Positions 23,915 through 58,989 of a stretch of 64,000 bases of DNA are shown piece after piece. The DNA comes from Nereocystis luetkeana (Eukaryota; Sar; Phaeophyceae; Laminariales; Laminariaceae). The notes under the pieces were generated by a model. That model did not search any database. It had not been told where the DNA came from and saw nothing but the letters and a program-made list of their open reading frames with translations. How positions within the stretch are numbered: position 1 is the stretch's first letter; each line of letters begins with the position of its first letter. A program made the translations under genes and the position numbers. Location of the stretch: positions 8,331,338 to 8,395,337 of the forward strand of contig JARUPZ010000013.1 of the NCBI GenBank assembly GCA_031213475.1. Direction: 5' to 3'.

Positions 23915-24588
23915 ATACATTCGGCATACCAGGTACGACGGAATACGGCACAGCAACAGCAACTCTGTCGGCTTGTTTTTTATGACAGCAAGAAACAACA
24001 GAAGAAGTCTGTTCTTTTTGGTCCGTGTTGCCTTGTCGATGTCGAGAAAAACGAAATAAAAAAAATGACGGTTTCATCGGTTTCGTGGTATTATTATTGT
24101 GGCGGTTGGACTGCTGTGGAGTATGTGTAAGTCCACGATCTAGAATCTATTAATAGACGCTTTTGCCAGAAGGGACGAGCCGCAACGGGAGCTGTGCCCT
24201 TCCTCCCCTCGGCCTCTGGACAGAAACGAAACCTCGCCGTGTACGCCAAGCAAAAAACGCCCGCACGCCGAGCCGACGACAACGACCGCCCCACCTGCAC
24301 AACTAGCAGCATCCCACCCTTCCAAGGAACGACCCATTTGCTGTGCCCTGGTGACTGGTGACCCCAGCAGACCACCCCTGCCTAACCTTCAGTACGACAG
24401 TACCCGGCCAAAGAAGCGATCTTCGTTTTCCACCACAGCTGCAGAAGAAGTGCAACGGCAAACAGGTACCTGGTATGCTATACGGAGACTACACGCACTA
24501 TTAATAACGAGAGCATCTCTGCTTCTACCCGTCCGTACCGCGGAGAGACAGCTGAGGAGGCTATTGTGCGCACAACCGTCACACGACA
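23915..24588 (+). other. Conserved 5' flank of acidic-protein copy 1
   Basis: Shares ordered blocks with 41780-42500 and 43080-43630: TGTCGATGTCGAGAAAAACG, CGGTTTCATCGGTTTC, TCCACGATCTAGAATCTA, and CTCTGGACAGAAACGAAACC. The three flanks are thus copies of one upstream region. It probably carries the promoter and 5' UTR, but I recognise no defined element. Confidence 0.5.
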
Positions 24589-24603: not shown

Positions 24604-25522
24604 ATGATGACGCTATTCCGCGCGCAGGCGTGTGCTGCATTGCTGGCGGTCACGTGCTGCCCCAGCCCGGCGAAGGCCTTCGTGCCTATGCGGCGGGGGG
24701 GGCCCAGCAACGTCGTGGACAGACGATGCGTAGACGACCTAGCAACGACGAGGGACGCCGCGAAAGGAAGCGGCTTCTTAGCAGGCAGCCCACTGCCTAG
24801 CATAGGGAGCTGCAATGGCATCGACGAGACTGAGGTGCCTCTCCCCCGGGCACCAAGTGCGAAAGGGCACGCCGAGGCGTCCGGAGGCACGGTGTGCCCG
24901 CTCAGGCTGTACGATATTTTTTACATGATTGAGGTGGGTCTTTGCTCAACTCCAATGCTGCGTCGAGTCGAGGGGAAGTATATACTCGCAGCTGTGGCCG
25001 TGATACTGCGGTCTATACGAGTACCTCCGGCTAGCACACTTCTCTGCCGGAAGTATGTATAGGCTGCAGTTACTGTGTGTCTCTGTTATCTCAGTTACAA
25101 TTTTAAGACAGGCGCTGTTGGTGTTCGTGTTGATGTGTAGTTGTCTGATTCGCGGTGCGTATATACTTGGTCTATGTACGTACAGGCACCGTACGGTAGG
25201 CGCACCATATTGCACTACTCTACAGCAGGCCGAACCCCGCTGTTAACATGCGTTGCCCTACTCGTACATCGGTCGGGTACTATGCCTGGTCTCTATTAAA
25301 AGTAGCAGCTGAGAGCCGATTCCCACGAAAAGCATTATGTCGAGCGGGCGTTGTGTAGGGGTGGGGGGGGCGGGGGCGGGGCCCACCGGTTGCTCCGGCG
25401 AGGAATCGTATGACTTAGTACTGTAGCTACTGCTGTGGTGCATCAAATATAAACCGCGAACTACAGTATATCGTCGTCATCACCATCCACACCGCCATCA
25501 TCATCAACAACACCACCATTAA

Positions 25523-25563
<41 letters not shown>

Positions 25564-28500
25564 CAATCAGCACCATCATCACCAACATCACCATCCTCAT
25601 CATCATTGCTATCGTTATGTCCCCGATCCTTGGTCCCTGATTTAAGATTTATTGTGTCGTTCTGGCACAGATGCTGCTGTAGTGTCTTATCGCATCGACA
25701 ATCGATCTCATGGCCCTTTCCGTGTGTGTGTCTAGCAGACCTGCGACCTGGGAAGCACCGTCGGTGTCGAGGGCCAGGAGCCCTCAGGCGAAGAAGTAGA
25801 AGAAGAAGAAGAAGAAGAAGAGGCCGTGCCCAAAGGGGAGGCGGGAAACGAGATCACTACCATCACCGACAATGTGGTAGAAGAGAAGGAGGAGAAGGAG
25901 TGGGGCGTGGACGAAGGGGAGCAGTGGGAGGAGGAGGAGGAGTGGGAGTGGGTCGTGGACGACGAAAGTCAGAGGGAGATTGCTGACATTGCGATGAGGA
26001 TCACCGAGCCAGTGAGGGAGGAGAGGGAGACCGTCGTCATGACGATCGACATCACCGAGCTTGAAGGGGGGGGGGGGGGAAGAAAGGAGGAGGAGGAGGA
26101 GGAGGAGGAGGAGGAGGAGGAGGAGTGGGAGATCGACGAGGAGAGTCAGAGGGAGATTGCTGGCATTGCGATGAGGATCACCGAGCCAGTGAGGGAGGAG
26201 AGGGAGGCCGTCGTCATGACGATCGAGCTGGCGGAGCCCGAGAAGAGGGGCAAAGACAGAGAGGGGGAGGAAGAGGAGGAGGAAGAGGAGTGGGAATGGG
26301 AGATCGACGAGGAGAGTCGGAGGGAGATCGCTGACATTGCGATGAGGATCACCGAGCCGGTGAAGGAAGAGAGGGAGACCGCCGTCATGACGATCGACAT
26401 CACCGAGCTTGAAAGGGGGGGGAGAGAGAGAAAGGAGGAAGAGAAGGGGGGAGAGGAGGGGGAGGAGGACGAGGGGAGAGGGGAGGGCGAGGAGAGGGGG
26501 GGCGAGCAAGGGGGGGAGGAAGAGGAGGAAGACGAGGAGGGGGAGGGGAAGGGGAAGGAGGAGAGTATGTCTTCTTCTGGACGGACCCCGCCAAATGCTG
26601 GCACTGCGGAGACTGCTTCTGTTGCTGCTGCGGCCGCTCCGATCGCGGTCCCTGCCTCTGTGAGTCCTGTGACCCAGTCTGTTCCCGAGCTCGAGTGTTG
26701 GCCTCTGCCTGGACTGCTCGTGAAGGACGGAGTGAGAAAGACGCGGGACCGACCAGTCGTAGCAGTTTCCCACGGGACCGCTGTCGGTAAGTGGCCTTTA
26801 GAGTCTCTCCCTCTCTCGGCTCGCTGCTTCTGAAGTCCCTAAAAATACTAGGCGCGCTTGTGGAACACTCGACACGTAGATCGAGTGTTCATGCTGTGCG
26901 CGACATCCTACCGATTTGACGTGCCTGATAACGCACATTGCACATGATGGACGACGACGGTTGTTTCGAAACTCAGAATTTGTAAGCTCAGCACCTGGGC
27001 AGGGGCACTTATGACGTGTAGGCGTGTTCATCACCTCTAACCCGCTTGGAAGTTCAGAGGGGAAAAATTGCAGGGGCACCTATGATGTGTAGGCGTGTTC
27101 ATCACCTCTAACCCGCTTGGAAATTCAGAGGGGAAAAATTGACGACAAACAGTGCCACGATTGCAGCGACGACCACTGCGTGGTTGGGACATGATTCAAT
27201 GATTGGAAATGTACCTACAGTAGAGAAACACTGAATGCCGGGTTCACAGGGCACGAGGAAAACTCTTTTTTTTATTGGTGTTGTTAGAAGACGGCATTGC
27301 CCACGAGGCAACAATACACGACACACTTTTTTTTCCTGCCAGGGGACGTCGAAGGCGCATGACCTCGCCAAGGGGCACCCTCAAGTAGGCGTTTTTCCGC
27401 CGGGGGGATTTGAAGACGCCCGATCCCGCCTCAGACGTGATTCACTGTTTCACTTGATGATGCCCGAGGCGAGGCCGAGCGCCTGGAGTAAGGGGTCGTA
27501 GGTTGCGTCTTGGACAACACCCGCTCCCAACGACACCAACAAATCGAACTCCCCGTGCCCTGCGAACCCTGAACTCAGTGTTTTGCCGGTATTTTGCCGG
27601 TGCATTGCCGGTACATTGTCGGTACATTCGGAGCGATAGACGGCAGGGCGGGAGAGTGAGTGTCGTGCTTCCCGCACACGCTACCCGCTCCCACTTGATG
27701 ACCGAAGTATATCAAGAAAGATAGGCTACTAATCTGTGTGACCTGTGTGATATGTGTGAACTGTTTGGTCTACAGGAAGTCATGTTCGTTCGCCGGGCGG
27801 GAGCTGTATAATCTGCGTGATCCTAGGACGGGTTTCCTGGGTCGGGCCTGTACTACATAGATCCTGCACAACCTGTCACAACGGCAGCTTCTATAGGATC
27901 TAGTGGATCTATCGCAGATATGTCCCACGTGTGATGGTTTTCCCCTTTTTATTTCGTGTTTTCCTTCGTGTTTCCTCGGTCTTGTTTTTCGTCTCCCTTG
28001 GCATGTCCAGGAGTGATCAACGTAGACGAACACAGGTGACACTGGCATTAAACAACTCGCAGTTGTACACGGGAAGCATGACACTCACACACTCGCCCAC
28101 CCGCCCGCCCGCCCCGCCTCGTCATCTGCCGTCCTGAAAAATACACCGGAAATGTACCGGCAACGTACCGGCAATGTACCGGCAAAACTCTGGAATCAGG
28201 ATTCGAAGGGTACGGCGAGAAATTCAACTTGATGGTGTCGTTGGATGCGGGTGCCGGCCGAAAGGCAACCTGCAACCCCTTCTTCCGTGGCGGGTCTTGG
28301 AGGGCGCTGGGCTTCGTCAAGGGCACTATTGAGAGGAGGAGCAACAGCAGCAGCAGCAGCAGCAGCAACAGCCTCAGCAGCAGCAGCCTCAGCGGCGCCA
28401 GCAGGTCTTCTGTCCAGGACAACGTGGCTGCTGATTGGTCCAAGGTGGGTGGGCGATACTACTGCTGTAGTTTCTACTACCGAATGGTACTCTTTCTACT

Positions 28501-35277: not shown

Positions 35278-35281
35278 TCTA

Positions 35282-35386
35282 TTTCGGGGGACCATAGTTA
35301 ATAGGACCTATGGTATACATAAAAACCTATATATTTGACCATTTTTACTAACAACATTTGGTCCTATTAACTATGGTCCCCCGTTC
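35282..35386 (+). mobile_element. MITE family A, abutting the previous copy
   Basis: TTTCGGGGGACCATAG to CTATGGTCCCCCGTT with a forward core. Two elements in opposite orientation side by side suggest insertion into or beside an existing copy. Confidence 0.5.
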
Positions 35387-35739
35387 TAGTAGCGCATTCA
35401 CAACGAAAGTGTTTCAACTGCAGCGCCAGCGTATTTCGTGCGGTGATTTCCTCATAACGGTATATCCCCAATCGAGTCACCCCACGGTAGGGGTTGCACT
35501 TTTTGGGCCAGAGGTTTCTGGCCAATAATTGAGTTTTTAAGCTAGGAACTACCAGTTAGAATGGAATTTATGCTCGTACATTCGTTTTAGGACTAGCGCG
35601 TACAAGTAAGTGCCGGTCGGGTGGCACGAACGAATTTCTTCCAAGCATTGCATCGGGTGAGTTATTGAGCTCCTAATGTCAGGGGCTCAGGGACCTCTGG
35701 TGCGCCCCTACTATGAGATGGCCCAATGGTTGGGCAATA

Positions 35740-38013: not shown

Positions 38014-38275
38014 GGTATCCCCTCTCCCCTGCTGTGGCGTTATGATTTGTAGCAAGCGTCCCCTCATCATATCTGGCAGGCGTTATCGCCTACCTTTCTG
38101 ATGAATGCCTCGCCCTTTCGTTCAGAAGACATGTGACGAGGCAAGCATCGACTGGTACAAGAGTCCATACCCCCTAACATCATCAAGCACCTCGTGCGAG
38201 AGACCAGAGCAGAGCCAAGGGCATCACCTGCTAGCGGTAGTCGGTCCCTAGGGTCGTACTGCCTCATACATAAAA
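38014..38275 (-). repeat. 270-bp dispersed repeat, copy 1, with partly conserved minus-strand frame
   Basis: Pairs with 39640-39910. The minus frame reads MRQYDPRDRLPLAGDALG... SRTRCLMMLGG... CLPRHMSSERKGEAFIRK, then VGDNACQI and a stop. Block conservation with copy 2 in the same frame suggests descent from coding sequence, probably of a mobile element. I do not recognise the family. Confidence 0.5.
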
Positions 38276-39639: not shown

Positions 39640-39910
39640 TTGTGATACCCACTCTCCCCTGTTCCGGCATTGCCATTGGTAGCAAGCGTCCCCTCATCAT
39701 ACCTGGCCGGCGTTATCGCCTGCCTTTCTGACGAATGCCTCGCCCCTTCGTTCAGAAGACATCTGGCGAGGCAAGCAGCAACTAACACAAGAGCCTATAT
39801 ACGTAGCTTCTAACGTCGTCAAGCACCTTGTGTGACTGACCATAGCAGAGAGCCAAAGGCCTCGCCTACCTGCTATCAGTAGTCGGTCCATAGGCCCATA
39901 CTGCCTGAGA
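39640..39910 (-). repeat. 270-bp dispersed repeat, copy 2
   Basis: The minus frame reads LRQYGPMDRLLIAGRRG... SHTRCLTTLEA... CLPRQMSSERRGEAFVRK, then AGDNAGQV and a stop, parallel to copy 1 with indels kept in frame. Confidence 0.5.
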
Positions 39911-40599: not shown

Positions 40600-40990
40600 A
40601 TATACGTACGTACTATGTTCATACAGAACTCACGGGGTGTTGCACTGCATAGTATCTTCGTACAGGATACTATGCTCATACAGAACTCACGGGGTGTTGC
40701 GCTGCATAGTATCTTCAAACAGGATACTATGCCCATACGGAATTTCCGAGGTGTTACACTACATATTACGGGGGACCATAGTTAATAGGACCAAATATTC
40801 TTAGCAAAAATGGTCAAATATATAGGTTTTTTATGTATACCATAGGTCCTATTAACTATGGCCCCCCGTAATAGTATACGTAGTGCTCCCATACAGGATC
40901 CTCGGGGTGCAGCATCATATATTATCCTCATACAGGACTCACGGGGTGTTGCGCTACATAGTACCTTCTGACTCGAGGTTTTACGGGATG
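40600..40990 (+). repeat. 57-bp tandem array interrupted by a MITE
   Basis: CAGAACTCACGGGGTGTTGC occurs at 40624 and 40681, and a diverged unit at 40738. After the MITE at 40766-40871 further units follow (CCTCGGGGTGCAGC, GACTCACGGGGTGTTGC). Confidence 0.5.
40766..40871 (-). mobile_element. MITE family A inserted in a 57-bp tandem array
   Basis: TTACGGGGGACCATAG to CTATGGCCCCCCGTAA with TA at both flanks and a reversed core. The flanking DNA on both sides is the 57-bp repeat, so the insertion is younger than the array. Confidence 0.5.
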
Positions 40991-41779: not shown

Positions 41780-42489
41780 AATGCCGGATCGTACGATGGA
41801 ATGCGGCAGGCAGCAGCACCAGCACCAGCACCAGCTTGTTGTGTGTCTGTCGATGTCGAGGGAGACAAAATAAAATAAAAAGGGCGGTTTCATCGGTTTC
41901 ATCTGATGATTGTGGCGGTTGGGCGGTTGGGCGGTTGGGCTGTTGGGCTGGAGTATGTAATTTCCAGGATCTACAAGTAGTAGTAGACGCTTTTTTTGCT
42001 AGAAGCAGGAGCCACAGGGAAGGGTGGGCTCATTCCCGCAACAGCTGTGCCCTTCTTCTCTCCTCCTCTCGACAGAAACGAAGCCTCGCCTTGCGCCCGC
42101 CACCATAGCAAAGCGCCGACTGCAGCAGTACCTACTGCGCAGTGAGCAGCAGGAGATTTTACCCGGTCGGCCCATCGACCGATTGCTGCATATTTCTTCT
42201 TGCTGCCCTGGCCCGGGCAGACCCTCCTCGCCTCACCTACCCGGCCAAAAGAAAACATCTTTTGTTTTGCGTGCACTACTACTGTGCAGAAGAAAGAAGA
42301 AGAAGAAGTGCAATAGACACAAAAACAGCAGTGTACACACAAACAGGTACCTTGAAACACGGAGACTACAATACCGCGGAGAGCCTGTTCTTCTACCCCC
42401 GCGTACTGCGGGGAGCTAGAGGTACTTACTTGAAAGTAAAGGAGACCATGATACCATACAACAACCGCACGAATATTTATCACGCATGA
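41780..42489 (+). other. Third copy of the acidic-protein 5' flank
   Basis: Carries the same blocks (TGTCGATGTCGAGGGAGACA, GGTTTCATCGGTTTCATC, TCCAGGATCTACAAGTAG). It leads into the start-less pseudogene. Confidence 0.5.
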
Positions 42490-42790
42490 CCATAAGGCAG
42501 GGCGACGATCATACGCCAAGCCGTTAGCTCGCTTCTGTCAGTGGGTGGGCTGCGATGAACCCGCCCCCGTGGTTGGTGTCCCCTCTACTCTTGGCGGTGC
42601 GCCGTCTACAGACTCCCTGTCTACCACGTTGTTGGGTGCGACCCGCCGCATTCATGCGGCGGGCAGTCAATGCGGCGGATCGCACCCAACAACGTGGTAG
42701 ACAGGGAGTCCATAGGCGGCACCCCCAAGAGAAGAAGGGTCACTTCCTTCACGGGGCCGGGTACTTCGCAGCCCGCCCATTGCTCCGCAG
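42490..42790 (+). pseudogene. Start-less, rearranged copy of the acidic-protein exon 1
   Basis: The 5' flank from about 41820 matches those of the two intact genes. At 42502-42530 the sequence ATCATACGCCAAGCCG stands where copy 2 has ATGATGACACCGAGCCG, so both start codons are destroyed. Signal-peptide coding is replaced by an inverted copy of the next part. The sense arm still reads MRRIAPNNVVDRESIGG, parallel to MRRAAPNHVVDRRSIDD in copy 2, then diverges and ends at a stop near 42802. No exons 2 or 3 follow. Confidence 0.5.
42611..42710. repeat. Long palindrome: 42-base arms, 16-base loop, made from gene-family sequence
   Basis: Left arm 42611-42652 and right arm 42669-42710 are inverted complements with a single mismatch in 42 positions; the loop is 42653-42668. 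Weaker pairing extends outward to about 42580 and 42745. The right arm is the sense NNVVDRES coding of the pseudogene. Confidence 0.5.
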
Positions 42791-43079
42791 AGGAAATACA
42801 GTGATAAATAATGTTGATGTCGTATTGTACCTATATCACCATGTCCGGAAATGTAAGGGTTGTAGTGAAATTGGTACCTATATAAAACGAACATTATATT
42901 TACGGACAAAGTGGTACAACTTACGGTATATTATCATACTTCCAGGCACAACGGCAACATTGCGTTGGAAGGACGTGGTAACAAAATGTCCACCCCCAAG
43001 CAGGTAATCATGTATGTGTATGCACGACACCACAAACATGTACCCAGAGGTGGGATACACATATATACACGTCGTGCAC

Positions 43080-43631
43080 GTATCTGAGCGACGGAACACA
43101 GCAGCAACAGTATTATCTATAACAACAGTACAAGCCGGTCTTCTTTTGTCCGTGTTGTCTGTCGATGTCGAGAAAAACAAAGTAAAAAAAAAGGGCGGTT
43201 TCATCGGTTTCATGTTTTTGATGTGGCGGTAGGCCATGAGTACATATGAGTCCACGATCTAGAATCTAGACTCCCAGACGGACAAGCTGCAAGGGGGCAA
43301 AGGGGAGCGGTCATTCTCGCACCAGGTGTACCCTTCTCTTTGTCTCTCGACAGAAAAGAGGCCTCGCCTTGTGCCCGCCGACACAGCAAAACACCCGTGA
43401 CCACTCCAGCACAACGAACAAGATATCTCGCCCGTTCTTCAGTGGATCGATCGATTGCTGCAATCTTCTTGCTGGCCCGACCCGGCCACACAGACCTCGC
43501 AGCCTCTGTTGACCTCTACCGGGCGAAAGAAACGATCTTCGGAGTTTTTTGCACACAACTACCAATACTGCGGGCGGTATACAACGGTCGGTACACGCCA
43601 GCAACCGAACGGCGAGGCAAAAGGCAAGACG
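43080..43631 (+). other. Conserved 5' flank of acidic-protein copy 2
   Basis: Same ordered blocks as the flank of copy 1, including TGTCGATGTCGAGAAAAAC at 43162 and GTCCACGATCTAGAATCTAG at 43250. It ends at the shared ATGATGAC start. Confidence 0.5.
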
Positions 43632-44871
43632 ATGATGACACCGAGCCGTTTGCTGATGGCTTCTGCTGCGCTGCTGGCGGCCGTGTGCTACCCCTACCCA
43701 GTCAAGGCGTTCGTGCCCATGCGGCGGGCCGCACCTAACCACGTGGTTGACAGAAGGTCCATCGACGACAACCCCAGGAGGAGGACGGACACGATTGAGG
43801 CAGCCGGACTCCGCACCGCCCGCGCGCTGCCCAACGGGGGATGTCGCGACGCCAAAGGCATGGCGCCTCTGCCCCGTGCGCCAATTGCGGGTGGCCGTCA
43901 ACCTGCGGAGGCGTCGAGGCGGGGCGGGTTGTGCCCTCCGCTCCGCCTCTTCGACGTGTTTCACACGGTGTTGGAGGTGGGTGGGGTGTTACTGTTCCAA
44001 ACTTGAGGCGCGTACGGGTACCGGTATGTATGCAGTTTTTACTGCTGTATTATTAATAGTACCAGATGTTTTTGTAGCCGTGGTGTCGCGGCTTGGCCGG
44101 GTATTTTATGTCTCTAAATATTGGTAACACTTGTATTGGATATTAGTATGAAAAAGGTCCTTACATTCGTTACATTAGAGTGGTATATCTCTGGCGGGTG
44201 ATCCACCTCCTTCCGTTGGGTCTACGTACAACATTGCCTGCTGAATACACGGTTGATCGTGCCAGGATACTACGTACACCTTTCGGAGTAGAGTAGCTGT
44301 GTTGTTGTGTTGTTGCTGTCGTTGTTGATGTCGATAATATTTGCCGTTCTGTCTGTAGGTTTGTGTGCTTAGTCTTCTGATTTTGTACACCAGTAGTTAC
44401 CTGTAGCAAATGTATACTATTACGGGGGGCCATAGTTAACAGGACCAAATATTGTTAGTAAAAATGGTTAAACATAAAGGTTTTTATCTATACCATAGGT
44501 CCTGTTAACTATGGTCCCCCGTAATAGTATCGGTGGAAAAAGAGGCCAGCATAATACAGCCTTCGTGTTGGTTACAGCAGTTATTGTTTTACTCGCCGAA
44601 CATAAGTACGAGGAGCACGGCTGAGCTCTGCCTTGCACTTTGCGATGCGTTTGCCAAGGTCCCTTGAGCCTTGGGCCTTGAGCCTAAAAGCCTTGCACCT
44701 TTACCTACAACCACCCCCCCCACCCACCCACCCACCCACATCACACAGGACGGGGTTGGGGCTCCCCCCACTCGCCTCTCGAACACAATCCGGTGCAGCT
44801 GTTCTGCATTGTACCCTGTGTGCATATTGCATACAGGTACCTGATACACGAGAGTGCCTTTCATTCTGTAG

Positions 44872-44905
<34 letters not shown>

Positions 44906-47320
44906 CTCTATCATCAAGATATCACGCTCCCGATCATCGATGGTTGAGTATCGTTCTGGCGCAGATGCTTTATTGTATGTATAGCCGTCCAGGATCGACC
45001 ACCCTGTCAACATTTTCCATGTACCCAGCAGGCGTGCGACTTGGGGGGCACTGGCGTTACCGAGAAGGACCCCTCGTGCGAAGAAGCCGCGCCGGCGAAG
45101 GAAGCGGGGGGCGAGATCGCCACCATGATGGCCAAGATGGTGGGGCGGGGGAAGGATGAAGAGAAAGAGACTCCGAGCGAGACCGTTGTCATGACGGTCG
45201 AGATGAAGACCGGTTTGGAGGAGGGTGGGGAGGGGGAGCCCGGGGGGGCAGGGGAGGAGGGGCAAGGGAGGGAGGAGGTCATGTCTGCTGGGCAGACCCC
45301 GCTCATTGCCAGCATGCCGGAGACTGCTGTATCTTCTGGCTCTTCTGCCGCTGTTGCTGCTGCTCTTCTTGCGTCGGCCCCTACTCCGACCCCTGCTCCT
45401 GTCCCTGCGAGCCCTGCGAACATGTCTGTTCTCGAGCACGAGCGATGGCCTCTGCCTGGACTGCTCGCGGAGGAGGGAGTGACGAAGGCCAAGCACCTCA
45501 ACGTCGTAGCAGTTCCCCATGCGGCCGCCGTCGGTAAGTGGCTTCTCTCCGACTGTCTTGCTCTCCGTTCACTGCTGCTCCTGCTCCTGCGTTCCGTAAG
45601 ATTCGAGAGAGAGAGGCTTGCTTCTGGAACGCTCGGCATGTGCGGCACTGTAGATCGAGTTCCCACGCTGTTGGGCGGACATGCTACCATGGTGCTTTCA
45701 TGTGCCTGGTACTCACAGATCGTTGTTGTTGTAAAATTTACCAGCTGGCAGTGTGTAGCGAGCTCGTTCCAATCATACCAACCCACAACCCACATACAAA
45801 AAAGAGGCATTATTTCAGGGGCGGCTTCAGGCATACCTGGTATTAATAGGAGATACTATTATATCATTCAGGCTTGAATAATCGACGAAAAATTACCAGT
45901 ACATTGCTGGGCAGTCTCCCTTACCTACAACTCTACTGACTCCTCGCCGAATCTGAAAAGGTGACGTTTACTTATGCTTCACCCAATCGTATCCAACCGA
46001 GTGACGAACTTCACCAAAAGTTTGTTCCCCTGTCTACCAGGTACTTCTGTGCTGTACATACGTACTCATTACCTACAGCAGTGTATGAAGATGCCTCTTG
46101 TGCATGATACATGATGGGCTATACCTGGTACAGCAGTATGTTGACGTTCAAAAATTCAGAGCAGGCAGTCGTACGGCAACTGCTGCTGTGCAAGGCGCCT
46201 ATGATGTATGTGTGTGGGTGTGTGCTCCTCACGATGCTGTTGCTGCTGCCAATCGACATGCAGGATATCCTGTGTCCGTGCTGATTTTCCATCCTATTGT
46301 AGCTAGATGCCTGGTGTAATACCATGCGTTTACAAGCTCTGCGTGCACCACCTACGAGACAAAGATGCCGCGGCTGCATCGCAGACGCACTCTGGAGGTT
46401 AGAAAATGTCATACCTTGCCAGCGTACTGGATGCAAGGGGCAGCGCGACCTGTCGCAGCAGAGGAAATAAAGAAAGAAAGAAAGAAAGAAAGAAAGAAAC
46501 AAACAAACAAACAAACAAACAAACAAACAAACAAACAAACAAACAAACCAGCAAGCAAACGAACATGCAAACGAACAAACAAGCAAACAAACAAACGAAC
46601 AAACAAACAAACAAACGAACAAACAAATTAGCAAAATTAAATTAAATAAAATAACAAACTTGGTGCATAGCGTTCCCGTTAGGTTTCGTTTCCCTTGGCT
46701 TGCTTTTTTCGGGGAATATTTTTGAGCGATCAACGTTGAAGGTACTACTGCAGGCCAATAGGCTATTGCAGCCCAACAGTCTACTGTAGGCCCATAGCTC
46801 TTTGGTTTTCCTTGGATTTCTTCTTTTTGCGGGGAACGTTTTCGAGCCATCAACGTGGAAGTTCGTGCTAAATATTGATTGTCGGACGGCAAAGACACAA
46901 TACGGCTGATTGACTTGTAGTGTAGTTTGTCCGGGAAGCAGAACACTCACTCACTCACTCACTCACCCCGCCCACCCCGCCCATCCCGCCCCACTGCCTG
47001 CCCTTCCAAATGTACCGACAATGTACCGACAATGTACCGACAATGTACCGAAATCGGGATGCGAAGGCCACGACGAACTCGATTTGTTGGCGTCACTGGA
47101 AGCGGGTGCTGCCATGGAGGCAATGTACGACCCTTTCCTCCGCCGGGGTGCTTCGAGGGCGCTGGACTTCGCCCACGGCTCTATCAAGAGGAGCAACCGT
47201 AAGAGCAGCGGCAAGAGCGACCGCAAGAGCAACAGCGGCAACGGCAGCAACAGGTCTTCTGTCCAGGACAGCGCGGGCGAAGAGAGGGGCGTTGCCGCTC
47301 CGTCCAAGGCGGGTGGATAA
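43632..47320 (+). CDS. Acidic protein with bipartite plastid signal, copy 2 (three exons)
   Basis: Function unknown; paralogue of the gene at 24604. Model: exons 43632-43976, 45032-45533, 47067-47320, 366 residues. Residues 1-26 are a signal peptide (MMTPSRLLMASAALLAAV...) ending PVKA before FVPMRR, again with Phe at +1. Shared blocks: NHVVDRRSIDD, PLRLFDVFHTVLE at the end of exon 1, ACDLGGT at the start of exon 2, ERWPLPGLLAEEGV and VVAVPHAAAV at its end, and GHDELDLLASLEAGA in exon 3. Exon 2 has only one degenerate unit of the acidic repeat (GEIATMMAKMV, ETVVMTVEM) where copy 1 has three. Intron phases match copy 1 (0 and 1). The AG that copy 1 uses for exon 3 is GG here; the next AG, nine bases on, keeps frame and is used in this model. 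The Lys/Ser/Asn-rich tail ends at TAA. Confidence 0.5.
44420..44524 (-). mobile_element. MITE family A in intron 1 of the second acidic-protein gene
   Basis: TTACGGGGGGCCATAG to CTATGGTCCCCCGTAA, TA flanks, reversed core. I see no copy at the matching place in the paralogue at 24.6-28.7 kb, so it probably arrived after the duplication. Confidence 0.5.
44870..44905 (+). repeat. AATC tetranucleotide microsatellite
   Basis: About nine AATC units in intron 1 of the second acidic-protein gene. Confidence 0.5.
46467..46640 (+). repeat. AAAG then AAAC tetranucleotide microsatellite
   Basis: About eight AAAG units switch to about 30 AAAC units with a few GCAA and GAAC variants. Long frames here encode only TNKQ or FVCL repeats. 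Confidence 0.5.
46690..46880 (-). repeat. Short inverted relative of the 18-bp minisatellite
   Basis: Contains GAGCGATCAACGTTGAAGG, which is the inverse of the flank at 29310, then two or three degraded units (CCAATAGGCTATTGCAG) and a second GAGCCATCAACGTGGAAG. It lies in intron 2 of copy 2. Confidence 0.5.
47008..47052 (+). repeat. AATGTACCGAC tandem units before exon 3 of copy 2
   Basis: Four near-identical 11-bp units end about 15 bases before the exon. They may take the place of a usual pyrimidine tract, which is missing here. Confidence 0.5.
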
Positions 47321-48214: not shown

Positions 48215-48290
48215 TGAAGCCCTTAGTCCGCTGGGCTACCGGTAAAAGGTTATCCAATCGCCTACCCAATCTAAGCCTCACAACACTAGT
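48215..48290 (-). mobile_element. Partial copy of the second SINE family
   Basis: The complement shows TTAGATTGGGTAGGCGATTG, ACCTTTTACCGGTAGCCC and AGCGGACTAAGGG. Box B is missing. Confidence 0.5.
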
Positions 48291-48309
48291 TCGAAATATG
48301 AAGGATAGA

Positions 48310-48351
48310 CCACTGAGCTACTCAGTCAGCGCCGACTGAGTAGCTCAGTGG
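48310..48351. repeat. 18-bp perfect palindrome containing a tRNA box A-like core
   Basis: Arms CCACTGAGCTACTCAGTC and GACTGAGTAGCTCAGTGG with a six-base loop AGCGCC. The right arm contains GTAGCTCAGTGG, a tRNA D-arm type sequence. Confidence 0.5.
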
Positions 48352-48554
48352 CTTGACCTAACTATTTCAAACAAGAGAAGTACCTTGGGTTCCATACGGC
48401 CTCCCGCCGACAACATCCTTCGGGGTTGACCAGGCCCCTCACCAGCGCCTGGTTTTTCCTTCATATGGCCTCCCTCCCTAGTCGTCCGTTTCTTTCACCG
48501 TGGTTCTCTCAACTTGAAATCCCTTTCTCCCCCCTCGGCAGAAAAAACGGAAAT

Positions 48555-51277: not shown

Positions 51278-51705
51278 GTAGCTGTTTTATGGGTGAAGTG
51301 AGGGTTAACTCGGCTCCTGCTGATCACTGATGACCATCAGCGATCGTACCCCCGCCCCCCTGACGCCTCGCGTACGAACGTACACATATTGCCTTTGACG
51401 AACGTACACATATTGTCTTTGCTTTCTCGTCAACGTTTGCTCCAACCATTTCTCGAACCACACCACCCACCACCCATCAATCACCAGGCATGTTTAATCC
51501 TCCCACCACTGCCTCAAGCTCTTCATTTTTTTTTCATACAATAAAAAAAAACGTGTTACGATCGGTGGTACCGCCTTACTCGCGTGGGCGGCGAGAATAA
51601 CAAAAATATACCGAATGCGCTTAAACAGGTAAAATGCTGTTACGGCAGATGACTGTGACTAGAACCAGACATGTTTTCGAAGACGTTCGTAGGGAGATAG
51701 GTCTA

Positions 51706-51810
51706 TTACGGGGGACCATAGTTAATAGGACCTATGGTATACATAAAAACCTATATATTACACCATTTTTACTAACAATATTTGTTCCTATTAACTATGG
51801 TCCCCCGTAA
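51706..51810 (+). mobile_element. MITE family A
   Basis: TTACGGGGGACCATAG to CTATGGTCCCCCGTAA, TA flanks, forward core. Well preserved. Confidence 0.5.
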
Positions 51811-53289
51811 TACCTGTTTTTTGGGCCCATCGTGGGGGCTAATCACTATGTACCTGGTATATGATACTATGTACCCCTCCCCGGTCGTCTCACGTAGTGT
51901 TCATGGTAAGGCACCCAAGAGGCGGTTACATAGTACTGCCATTGCTGTCTCTGGAAGTTACTACACCGGAAATTAAAATAGCTCATTGAAGCTGTCATCC
52001 GTATGCTATCCCGCCTCACAAGCGACTCTTAGTAGGATGCAGCCCACCCTTCATGCGACTCGTCGGACACCTCACGTTTCGCTTCGCGCTTGGTGCAAGC
52101 AACGTCTGCCTGGTCGGCGAAAACCCGACATGCTCCGTCCCGGAATTGTAGGGATGCGAGGGTCGATCGTCATACGACTACGGCCATGTATGAGATCGAG
52201 CACATCTCTCCTATCGAGACCACCCTCCCCCCCGCGTAATTGCTGAGTCTGTTACGCAAAATTTCGTGGGCTGCTTACTGCAATGTGCCTCACGAAAACA
52301 AATGTTCCCACCGTGACTTTTTTGAAAAAAAAAAAAAAATGTTTTGTTTTAGGCACGACCATACACGCTTTGGAAAACATACTTGGGGAGATAGATATGC
52401 CTGGGTTTTGGGGCCATATTGGGGGCGCTGACTGCTGTAGACCAGGTACTGTATGGGCCCCCTGATTGCTACTAACAAACCTGATACGCAAAATTCCACG
52501 GGCTACTTGATGGAATGTGCCTAACAAAAACATATGTAGATCTCGATGTCGAATGGAAACGTCTAGGGTACAAGGTTGCGAATCGGCTGTGTTTACCGAT
52601 TTTTAAAGTAACGGAATTCCGTTGTAGCCCGTACGTTTCCGATATATATATTGGGTTCATTTCTCTTCACAATAATCCGTGCAAAACCTGAGGATTTTTT
52701 TGGAATTAATTGGCTCAACATCGGGAAAAGAACATCGCGCCCCGATTTGGTGATTCCGACTCCGATACAACTTGCTCCGATCAATCGGGTTAATCGGTTC
52801 CGATTTGCCGATTCCGATTCCGATTTAAAGTGATGCTCAGTCGAGGAACCGATTCCGTCAGCAAAGTGCGAACACCACGACTCAAGAAAAAAACGTACCT
52901 CGTAAAATCCCCAAGGTCCGACGGTGACACGAGTGAGGCCATCCTTTCCGGTCAATGATTCTGGTTGCAAGTGAAACGTACATACTTCGTAAAATCCCCC
53001 CAAGGTTCGATATATGATACCATTGTACCATCGGTGATCATTGTTTCGCTTGCCACCAGACAATGTCCAGCGCGTGCGCATGTTCCAACCATGCCATCGA
53101 CATGCAATACGGAACGGCATCTACCGTAGCATACGATGACGTCAAAGCAACGGAAATTGCTGTCAGGGGCTTTACGCTGCGCCAGGCATGCATCGCATCA
53201 GTTTATCGAAATCAAGATCGGGACGCCTTGTATCCCTGCTTGGATTCGACTGTATTGAGCGGGTACTCGTCGGGAGTCGCGCGTGAAGC
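51811..53289. other. Intergenic, no gene recognised
   Basis: An R7 copy lies at 52065-52230. Near-duplicate TACTGCAATGTGCCTCACG and ACTTGATGGAATGTGCCTAAC blocks occur at 52275 and 52505, and TTCGTAAAATCCCC twice near 52905 and 52988. Confidence 0.5.
52065..52230 (+). repeat. R7 repeat, long copy
   Basis: CACGTTTCGCTTCGCGCTTG, GTGCAAGCAACGTCTGCC, GGAATTGTAGGGATGCGAGG, TACGACTACGGCCATGTATG, AGATCGAGCACATCTCTCC, ending in a C run. Confidence 0.5.
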
Positions 53290-58860: not shown

Positions 58861-58880
58861 TCAGGGCATGCACTTTTCTT

Positions 58881-58974
58881 AACCCTTCTAGAGCCGCAGT
58901 CCCGTTTTGGGGACAAACCAGTCAAATTTTAAGTAGTTTTCCCCCAAAACGGGACTGCGGTTCTAAAGGGGCTA
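58881..58974. mobile_element. MITE family B, well preserved
   Basis: AACCCTTCTAGAGCCGCAGTCC to GGACTGCGGTTCTAAAGGGG. The inner arms CCGTTTTGGGGAC and CCCCCAAAACGGG are nearly perfect. Confidence 0.5.
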
Positions 58975-58989
58975 ATATGTACTACTAAT

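Follow-up and report, generated by a model that had tools for sequence, protein, structure and literature searches.

In the brown alga Nereocystis luetkeana, a truncated tandem paralogue of two apparently intact genes, here called P, carries an inverted copy of its own exon 1 in the place of the signal-peptide part and forms a long palindrome. The one other truncated copy of this exon clearly found in the 465-Mb genome, here called C, is also a foldback, with its U-turn at the opposite end of the same exon segment. We read the two loci as products of two probably independent inverted duplications, each probably made by a template switch, that are now candidate hairpin-siRNA loci and probably for the most part decaying; we put the probability of this reading at roughly 0.6. 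The analysis started from a 64-kb window (C13:8331338-8395337) of an assembly of 1987 contigs, and positions given below without a contig or locus name refer to this window.

Intact paralogues and the truncated copy

The window holds two apparently intact members of the family, A and B (Table 1). Exon 1 begins, by eye, with a signal peptide followed by A-FVP, and the first introns, by our reading of the splice sites, measure about 800 bases in A and about 1050 in B. Six exon pieces of A and B gave nothing above cut-off in Pfam, the sole match having an E-value of 0.22, and no relative of exon 1 was confirmed among viral or prokaryotic contigs. The family has the appearance of a small, fast-evolving one whose products may be secreted or plastid-targeted. 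Exon 2 of A is a long stretch, acidic and rich in Glu, in which a unit like ESQREIADIAMRITEPVREERE occurs three times; that of B is shorter and lacks this unit. The EsV_1_7_cys domain is expanded in brown algae; in this genome 150 matches to it were scored, from 1718 candidates.

Table 1 Coordinates of the intact paralogues, the two foldback copies and a repeated element.
Feature	Position	Strand	Remarks
A exon 1	24604-24933	+	intact paralogue
A exon 2	25739-26786	+	ends before GTAAGT
B exon 1	43632-43976	+	NHVVDR; by eye also signal peptide and AFVP; 3' end deduced from a GTGGGT donor
B exon 2	45032-45533	+	ends before GTAAGT
P 5' flank	41844-42282	+	common to intact paralogues; possible promoter/5'UTR
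P ruined double start codon	42508-42513	+	ATCATA where B (43632-43637) and C have ATGATG
P left (inverted) arm	42539-42652	+	reverse complement of exon-1 sequence, in signal-peptide position
P inner left arm	42611-42652	+	41/42 complementary to 42669-42710
P spacer/loop, 16 nt	42653-42668	+	contains additional partial copy ATGCGGCGGG
P right (direct) arm	42669-42782	+	colinear with B exon 1 from 43719 on
C direct arm	L021:1603-1769
C inverted arm	L021:1772-1938
MITE-like element, examples	44414-44530; 40764-40877; 35279-35391; 51703-51812		15 further places

The 5' flank of P matches that of B (43156-43562) at 64% over 455 columns, and the stretch 41848-42093 matches 24034-24241 of A at 67% over 250 columns. 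A block of about 55 bases near 41850-41905 (GTCGATGTCGAG...GGCGGTTTCATCGGTTTCAT) is strongly similar across P, A and B, which suggests a promoter or 5'UTR element. An earlier account of this DNA, the sequence-only reading, had described P as a pseudogene that shares the family flank, has lost both start codons and has its signal-peptide part replaced by an inverted copy, and we find all three to be so. Upstream of the palindrome the exon start is still recognisable, with its two start codons ruined; by eye these differ from the intact form by one substitution and a one-base deletion. The part that is missing, some 60-70 nt from the exon start to ATGCGGCGG, is occupied by the inverted copy. The 3' part of exon 1 is gone as well, with exon homology stopping near 42794, and no exon-2 match was found between this point and the start of similarity to B's own 5' flank near 42974.

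Geometry of the palindrome in P

The same reading had described a hairpin with 42-nt arms, one mismatch and a 16-nt spacer. This is correct for the inner part of the structure and falls short of its extent: complementarity runs outwards over 42539-42782, which is C13:8373876-8374119 in the assembly, giving arms of 114 nt that are 77% complementary when compared without gaps. Gapped pairwise alignment of the arms leaves 16 mismatches in 112 gap-free columns, one in the inner 42 and 15 in the outer 70. Self-BLAST of the locus returns an opposite-strand match of 80% over 249 columns with an E-value of 1.35e-56, which rules out a chance origin. The pair 42461-42483/42801-42823, considered as an outer extension, was rejected as short (23 nt, 74%) and asymmetrical.

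Both arms derive from the gene. Positions 42670-42794, on the right, align with 43719-43841 of B exon 1 at 70%, and the left arm is that same segment inverted, at 67%; each arm matches exon 1 of A as well as of B, the genes of the possible target family. The + strand folds at -223.6 kcal/mol, against a mean of -127.85 for shuffled sequences (z -16.5), and none of 100 shuffles was as stable; for the - strand z is -16.2. P thus has a long inverted repeat of the kind that characterises hpRNA and endo-siRNA loci, whose RNA could pair into an extended duplex. An Rfam scan of the window gave no match at gathering score, although a new gene need not match, and a tRNA scan of the window with ARAGORN gave nothing.

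A second foldback with a different U-turn

Exon 1 of B, searched as protein against the whole genome, matched at three places, namely itself, A and C24:1567940-1568200, the last being C. With exon 1 of C as query, the search returned A, B, C, the inverted arm of C and P (E 0.58), together with a weak place on contig C29 (E 0.27, 33% identity). Exon 2 was found genome-wide at A and B, plus a weak place on contig C2 (E 0.034, 28%); in the 8.6 kb downstream of C it was not found, the best E-value being 0.37.

C retains the start codons and the signal-peptide part, runs into a stop after 71 codons and then folds back, the foldback occupying C24:1568042-1568377. Its arms of 167 nt match at 132 positions, which corresponds to 79% complementarity, and its fold has a z of -17.3, with none of 100 shuffles as stable. 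The U-turn of P lies at the ATGCGGCGG (5') end of the exon segment and that of C at the opposite (3') end. The conserved flank block is partly degraded in C, and a MITE lies within its 5' region (L021:1360-1470).

In a neighbour-joining analysis with 500 bootstrap replicates, run on multiple alignments of a cruder kind than the pairwise one, the arms of the same locus group together at 0.72 for P and 0.71 for C, and the two cross-pairings tested reach 0 and 0.008. Leaving out the inner 42 columns lowers the arm grouping to 0.49 and 0.51, with cross-pairings at 0.01 and 0. Because the arms pair within loci, the two foldback events look independent, and the U-turns of P and C are probably separate in origin.

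Frequency of foldbacks

We scanned 19 control stretches of 10 kb each (190 kb) for foldbacks whose arms measured 80 nt or more, were complementary at 70% or more and were separated by a gap of no more than 60. The three that were found are all repetitive, two belonging to the MITE family of the window and one lying at L026:600-894. Non-repetitive foldbacks numbered zero in these 190 kb, so that for a locus of 500 bases the rate has a 95% upper bound near 0.8%. The same scan of the window returned P and one MITE pair. C is the fairer case of the two, because it was found through protein similarity and not by a search for hairpins. That both truncated copies found are foldbacks speaks against our preferred reading, since it is hard to obtain from undirected mutation. 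The low control rate would allow for selection, or for an exon with an unusual tendency to fold back.

Several inverted repeats of other kinds occur in this DNA. A MITE-like element, palindromic and about 110 bp long, has the ends GGGGG(A/G)CCATAGTTAA(T/C)AGGACC and is present at 19 places in the 64 kb as well as in the 5' region of C. A 17-base pattern taken from it hit one viral contig, L001, with exact matches of 20 and 18 bases and none longer, and was dropped as uninformative. A second foldback element family, of about 300 bp, includes L026:600-894 and, in the window, 38088-38252 and 39718-39899. The palindrome at 48286-48375 has 45-nt arms and no spacer, contains GACCACTGAGCTACTCAGTCAGC, which looks tRNA-like by eye, with no tRNA called there by ARAGORN; at 58879-58975 there is a short-spaced inverted repeat with 48-nt arms at 81%.

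Decay and age of the arms

Our first multiple alignment missed a 2-nt gap and counted 32 outer arm differences in P, against 15 in the gapped pairwise alignment. Multiple alignments of this cruder kind underlie some of the identities and the bootstrap, as well as two results for P in this section: its polarised counts and its arm distance of 0.297. Polarised arm differences divide 10 to 14 in P and 13 to 13, with 9 ties, in C. On the + strand, transitions that keep pairing stand to those that break it as 3:4 in P and 5:11 in C; an excess of pairing-keeping changes, sought in the arms of P and C in this one genome, was not found. The arm differences look like neutral decay.

The near-perfect inner block of P stands out from this pattern at a change point at position 42 (permutation p 0.045, or 0.031 when indels are counted). 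We prefer these permutations to a Fisher test of inner against outer columns (p 0.0047), for which the boundary was chosen post hoc; a leading-run p of 0.0016 comes from a statistic picked after the block had been seen. The arms of C have no such inner-to-outer gradient. At sites where A and B agree, P has kept the shared base at 26-27 of 29 in the inner block, against 30-31 of 44 outside it, as some constraint would also produce; overall, the case for constraint is weak. The near-perfect block is equally expected from homogenisation of the arms, because template switching, reported to make the arms of inverted repeats more alike (PMC8604942; PMC3820800), gives that pattern.

The Jukes-Cantor distance between the arms of C is 0.246; between those of P it is 0.158 by gapped pairwise alignment and 0.297 by multiple alignment. 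Distances between copies are 0.429 for P and B, 0.395-0.429 for C and P and 0.503 for C and A. Because the arm distances are smaller than the copy distances, each copy seems to have been in place before it acquired its foldback. The age contrast is weak in the case of P: if the larger arm distance (0.297, SE 0.062) is taken, its error overlaps that of the distance to B (0.429, SE 0.082).

Proposed origin of the foldbacks

We propose that a reversed copy of about 114 nt of exon 1 came to occupy the signal-peptide position after P had split from B. The most likely mechanism, and the simplest, is a U-turn, in which DNA synthesis switches template to the opposite strand. C, on another contig, would have arisen by another U-turn, probably separate from the first, at the opposite end of this segment. 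Decay of the arms at the two loci would since have been mostly neutral, and a later switch of template between the arms of P probably made its inner 42 nt alike again. The sequence itself shows the anatomy, its recurrence, how far the arms have decayed and the matches to silencing domains; we infer the template switching, the order of events and the homogenisation. If the flank of P is active, it would give a hairpin transcript with an imperfect duplex of about 115 bp; siRNAs that a Dicer might cut from it would fit B best and A weakly.

The sequence-only reading had seen in P the birth of a small-RNA gene by inverted duplication. The anatomy favours it, in the inverted duplication itself, the family flank and the second foldback C; on the side of function, the neutral-looking decay speaks against it. 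As an account of how P arose, and as a candidate, it appears reasonable, and a functional role is unproven.

It is possible, although we think it the less probable account, that the exon is simply prone to fold back, or that truncated copies of this gene are born by replicative template switching, so that foldbacks recur without selection and the inner block of P is the latest arm correction. Two different U-turn points would fit such recurrence, as would the sharp 42-nt block beside the loop, given that homogenisation of arms by template switching is known. Against it stands the apparent youth of the foldbacks relative to the duplications, which is clear for C and less so for P.

Complementarity to A and B

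Predicted guides from the two hairpins, the candidate siRNA loci of our preferred reading, were compared with A and B by a plant-style target score (G:U 0.5, mismatch 1, doubled at positions 2-13), in which lower is better. The best 21-mers of P score 3.0 against B (one mismatch and one G:U) and 4.0 against A (one mismatch and three G:U). The best guide for both paralogues starts at 42617, with 4.0 for A and 3.5 for B. The idea that 42 nt represent two 21-nt Dicer registers was dropped after an informal look, as this start is out of that register.

Scores of 4 or better are reached by 10 of the 94 21-mers of the antisense arm of P against B and by one of 94 against A. The arm of C gives four of 154 against A, the best at 2.5, and none of 154 against B. 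When A and B are taken as antisense to each other over the same segment, none of 148 reaches 4 in either direction. Taken over all of exon 1, antisense of either paralogue to the other attains best scores of 3 and 2, equal to or better than P, and shuffled hairpins (40 each) reach at best 4.0 against B and 5.5 against A. The complementarity of P and C to the paralogues thus appears moderate, with P seeming to lean on B and C on A, as simple relatedness would also predict. Good targeting of exon 1 in both paralogues, as the earlier proposal would have it, is so far not supported.

Domain searches of the genome gave matches to parts of a silencing machinery. The Piwi domain has five matches at one locus on contig C2; an intact Argonaute gene is unproved, because in three of these matches the reading frame is interrupted by a stop, perhaps through read-through of introns. 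RNase III has one match, on contig C7 (E 9e-6), RdRP has matches at two places on contig C10, and the Dicer_dimer domain appears below cut-off only (E 0.028). A 665-residue open frame, by eye similar to a non-LTR reverse transcriptase, adjoins the RNase III exon (L015:5404-7401). Homologues of Dicer, Argonaute, RDR1 and RDR6 are reported from Ectocarpus (PMC4513859).

Whether P, and perhaps C, is a working hpRNA locus, transcribed from the inherited flank, diced and repressing A and B, is doubtful on this evidence. Such a role would agree with the recurrence of foldbacks over one exon segment in both truncated copies, the similar 5' flank kept by P, the stability of both folds, the Argonaute, RNase III and RdRP domain matches, and the segment 21-mers that reach 4 from P to B and from C to A and not between A and B. 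On the other hand, targeting is moderate, with a single 21-mer from P to A and none from C to B; whole-exon antisense of the paralogues does as well or better, and shuffled hairpins come as low as 4.0 against B. The pairing-keeping changes are without excess, and in C the flank block is partly degraded, with a MITE in the 5' region. We consider it unlikely that the family is controlled by two independently born hpRNA genes derived from its own truncated copies, P acting on B and C on A.

Two further explanations are very improbable. Palindromes are a known class of assembly or library artefact, but the arms of a fold-back chimera would be near-identical, and here they differ at 16 of 112 positions in P and 35 of 167 in C. 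Miniature inverted-repeat transposons are many in this genome, one family alone being present at 19 places in the window, but each arm of P matches exon 1 of A and B, and whole-genome DNA searches found no dispersed copies, returning P alone for P and C and A for C; these searches score best candidates only and missed B for P, so that they leave rarity unproved.

Comparison with known foldback loci

The reading of P and C as gene-derived inverted duplications has counterparts in several lineages. The plant foldbacks MIR161 and MIR163 are described as born by inverted duplication of gene sequences (PMC1790633; PMC3237417), with the parental promoter region carried along in MIR163 (PMC1790633); the model is reported to extend to pseudogenes (PMC3237417), and rice pseudogenes are reported to yield small RNAs (PMC2708354). 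As in these plant loci, the likeness of both arms of P to a protein-coding family extends further than one small-RNA site, and the 5' flank, a possible promoter region, came along, as the promoter region did in MIR163. In contrast to them, P has moderate matches to its possible targets, belongs to another lineage and is known from sequence alone.

The hp-pncr009 hpRNAs of Drosophila are reported to be interspersed with 825-Oak genes, and their siRNAs and Dicer-2 dependence were measured (PMC10317233). Here too several hairpins come from one gene family, one of them lying between intact members, and the structure is a long duplex rather than a miRNA stem. Unlike the Drosophila hpRNAs, with their measured siRNAs, P and C are so far features of a DNA sequence.

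Among stramenopiles, Phytophthora is reported to draw 21-nt small RNAs both from gene families and from inverted repeats (PMC3804510), and inverted repeats are likewise the candidate source here; unlike what we propose for P and C, the Phytophthora small RNAs are, in the part of that paper available to us, not traced to a truncated paralogue with an inverted exon. The study of the pre-miRNAs of Ectocarpus, also a brown alga, saw no sign that they had come from protein-coding genes (PMC4513859), whereas P would be gene-derived. The repeats described in PMC8604942 resemble the block beside the spacer of P in that imperfect inverted-repeat arms are made more alike; they differ in being short and in yeast coding DNA, whereas the founding inverted copy in P exceeds 100 nt. 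Judged by titles and the beginnings of abstracts, the papers listed by our searches held no gene-derived foldback locus in brown algae, which leaves absence unproven.

In land plants, new small-RNA genes are known to arise by inverted duplication of their target genes, and the same origin has been proposed for Drosophila hpRNAs. The second foldback, C, with its different U-turn, is new and extends the observation on P: a four-copy family in which two copies are foldbacks with different U-turns offers a natural test between mutation alone and retention for the silencing of relatives. If control by two hpRNAs were true, it would be a brown-algal counterpart of the target-derived hpRNAs of Drosophila, and small RNAs would come from gene sequence in a lineage whose known miRNAs reportedly arise otherwise (PMC4513859).
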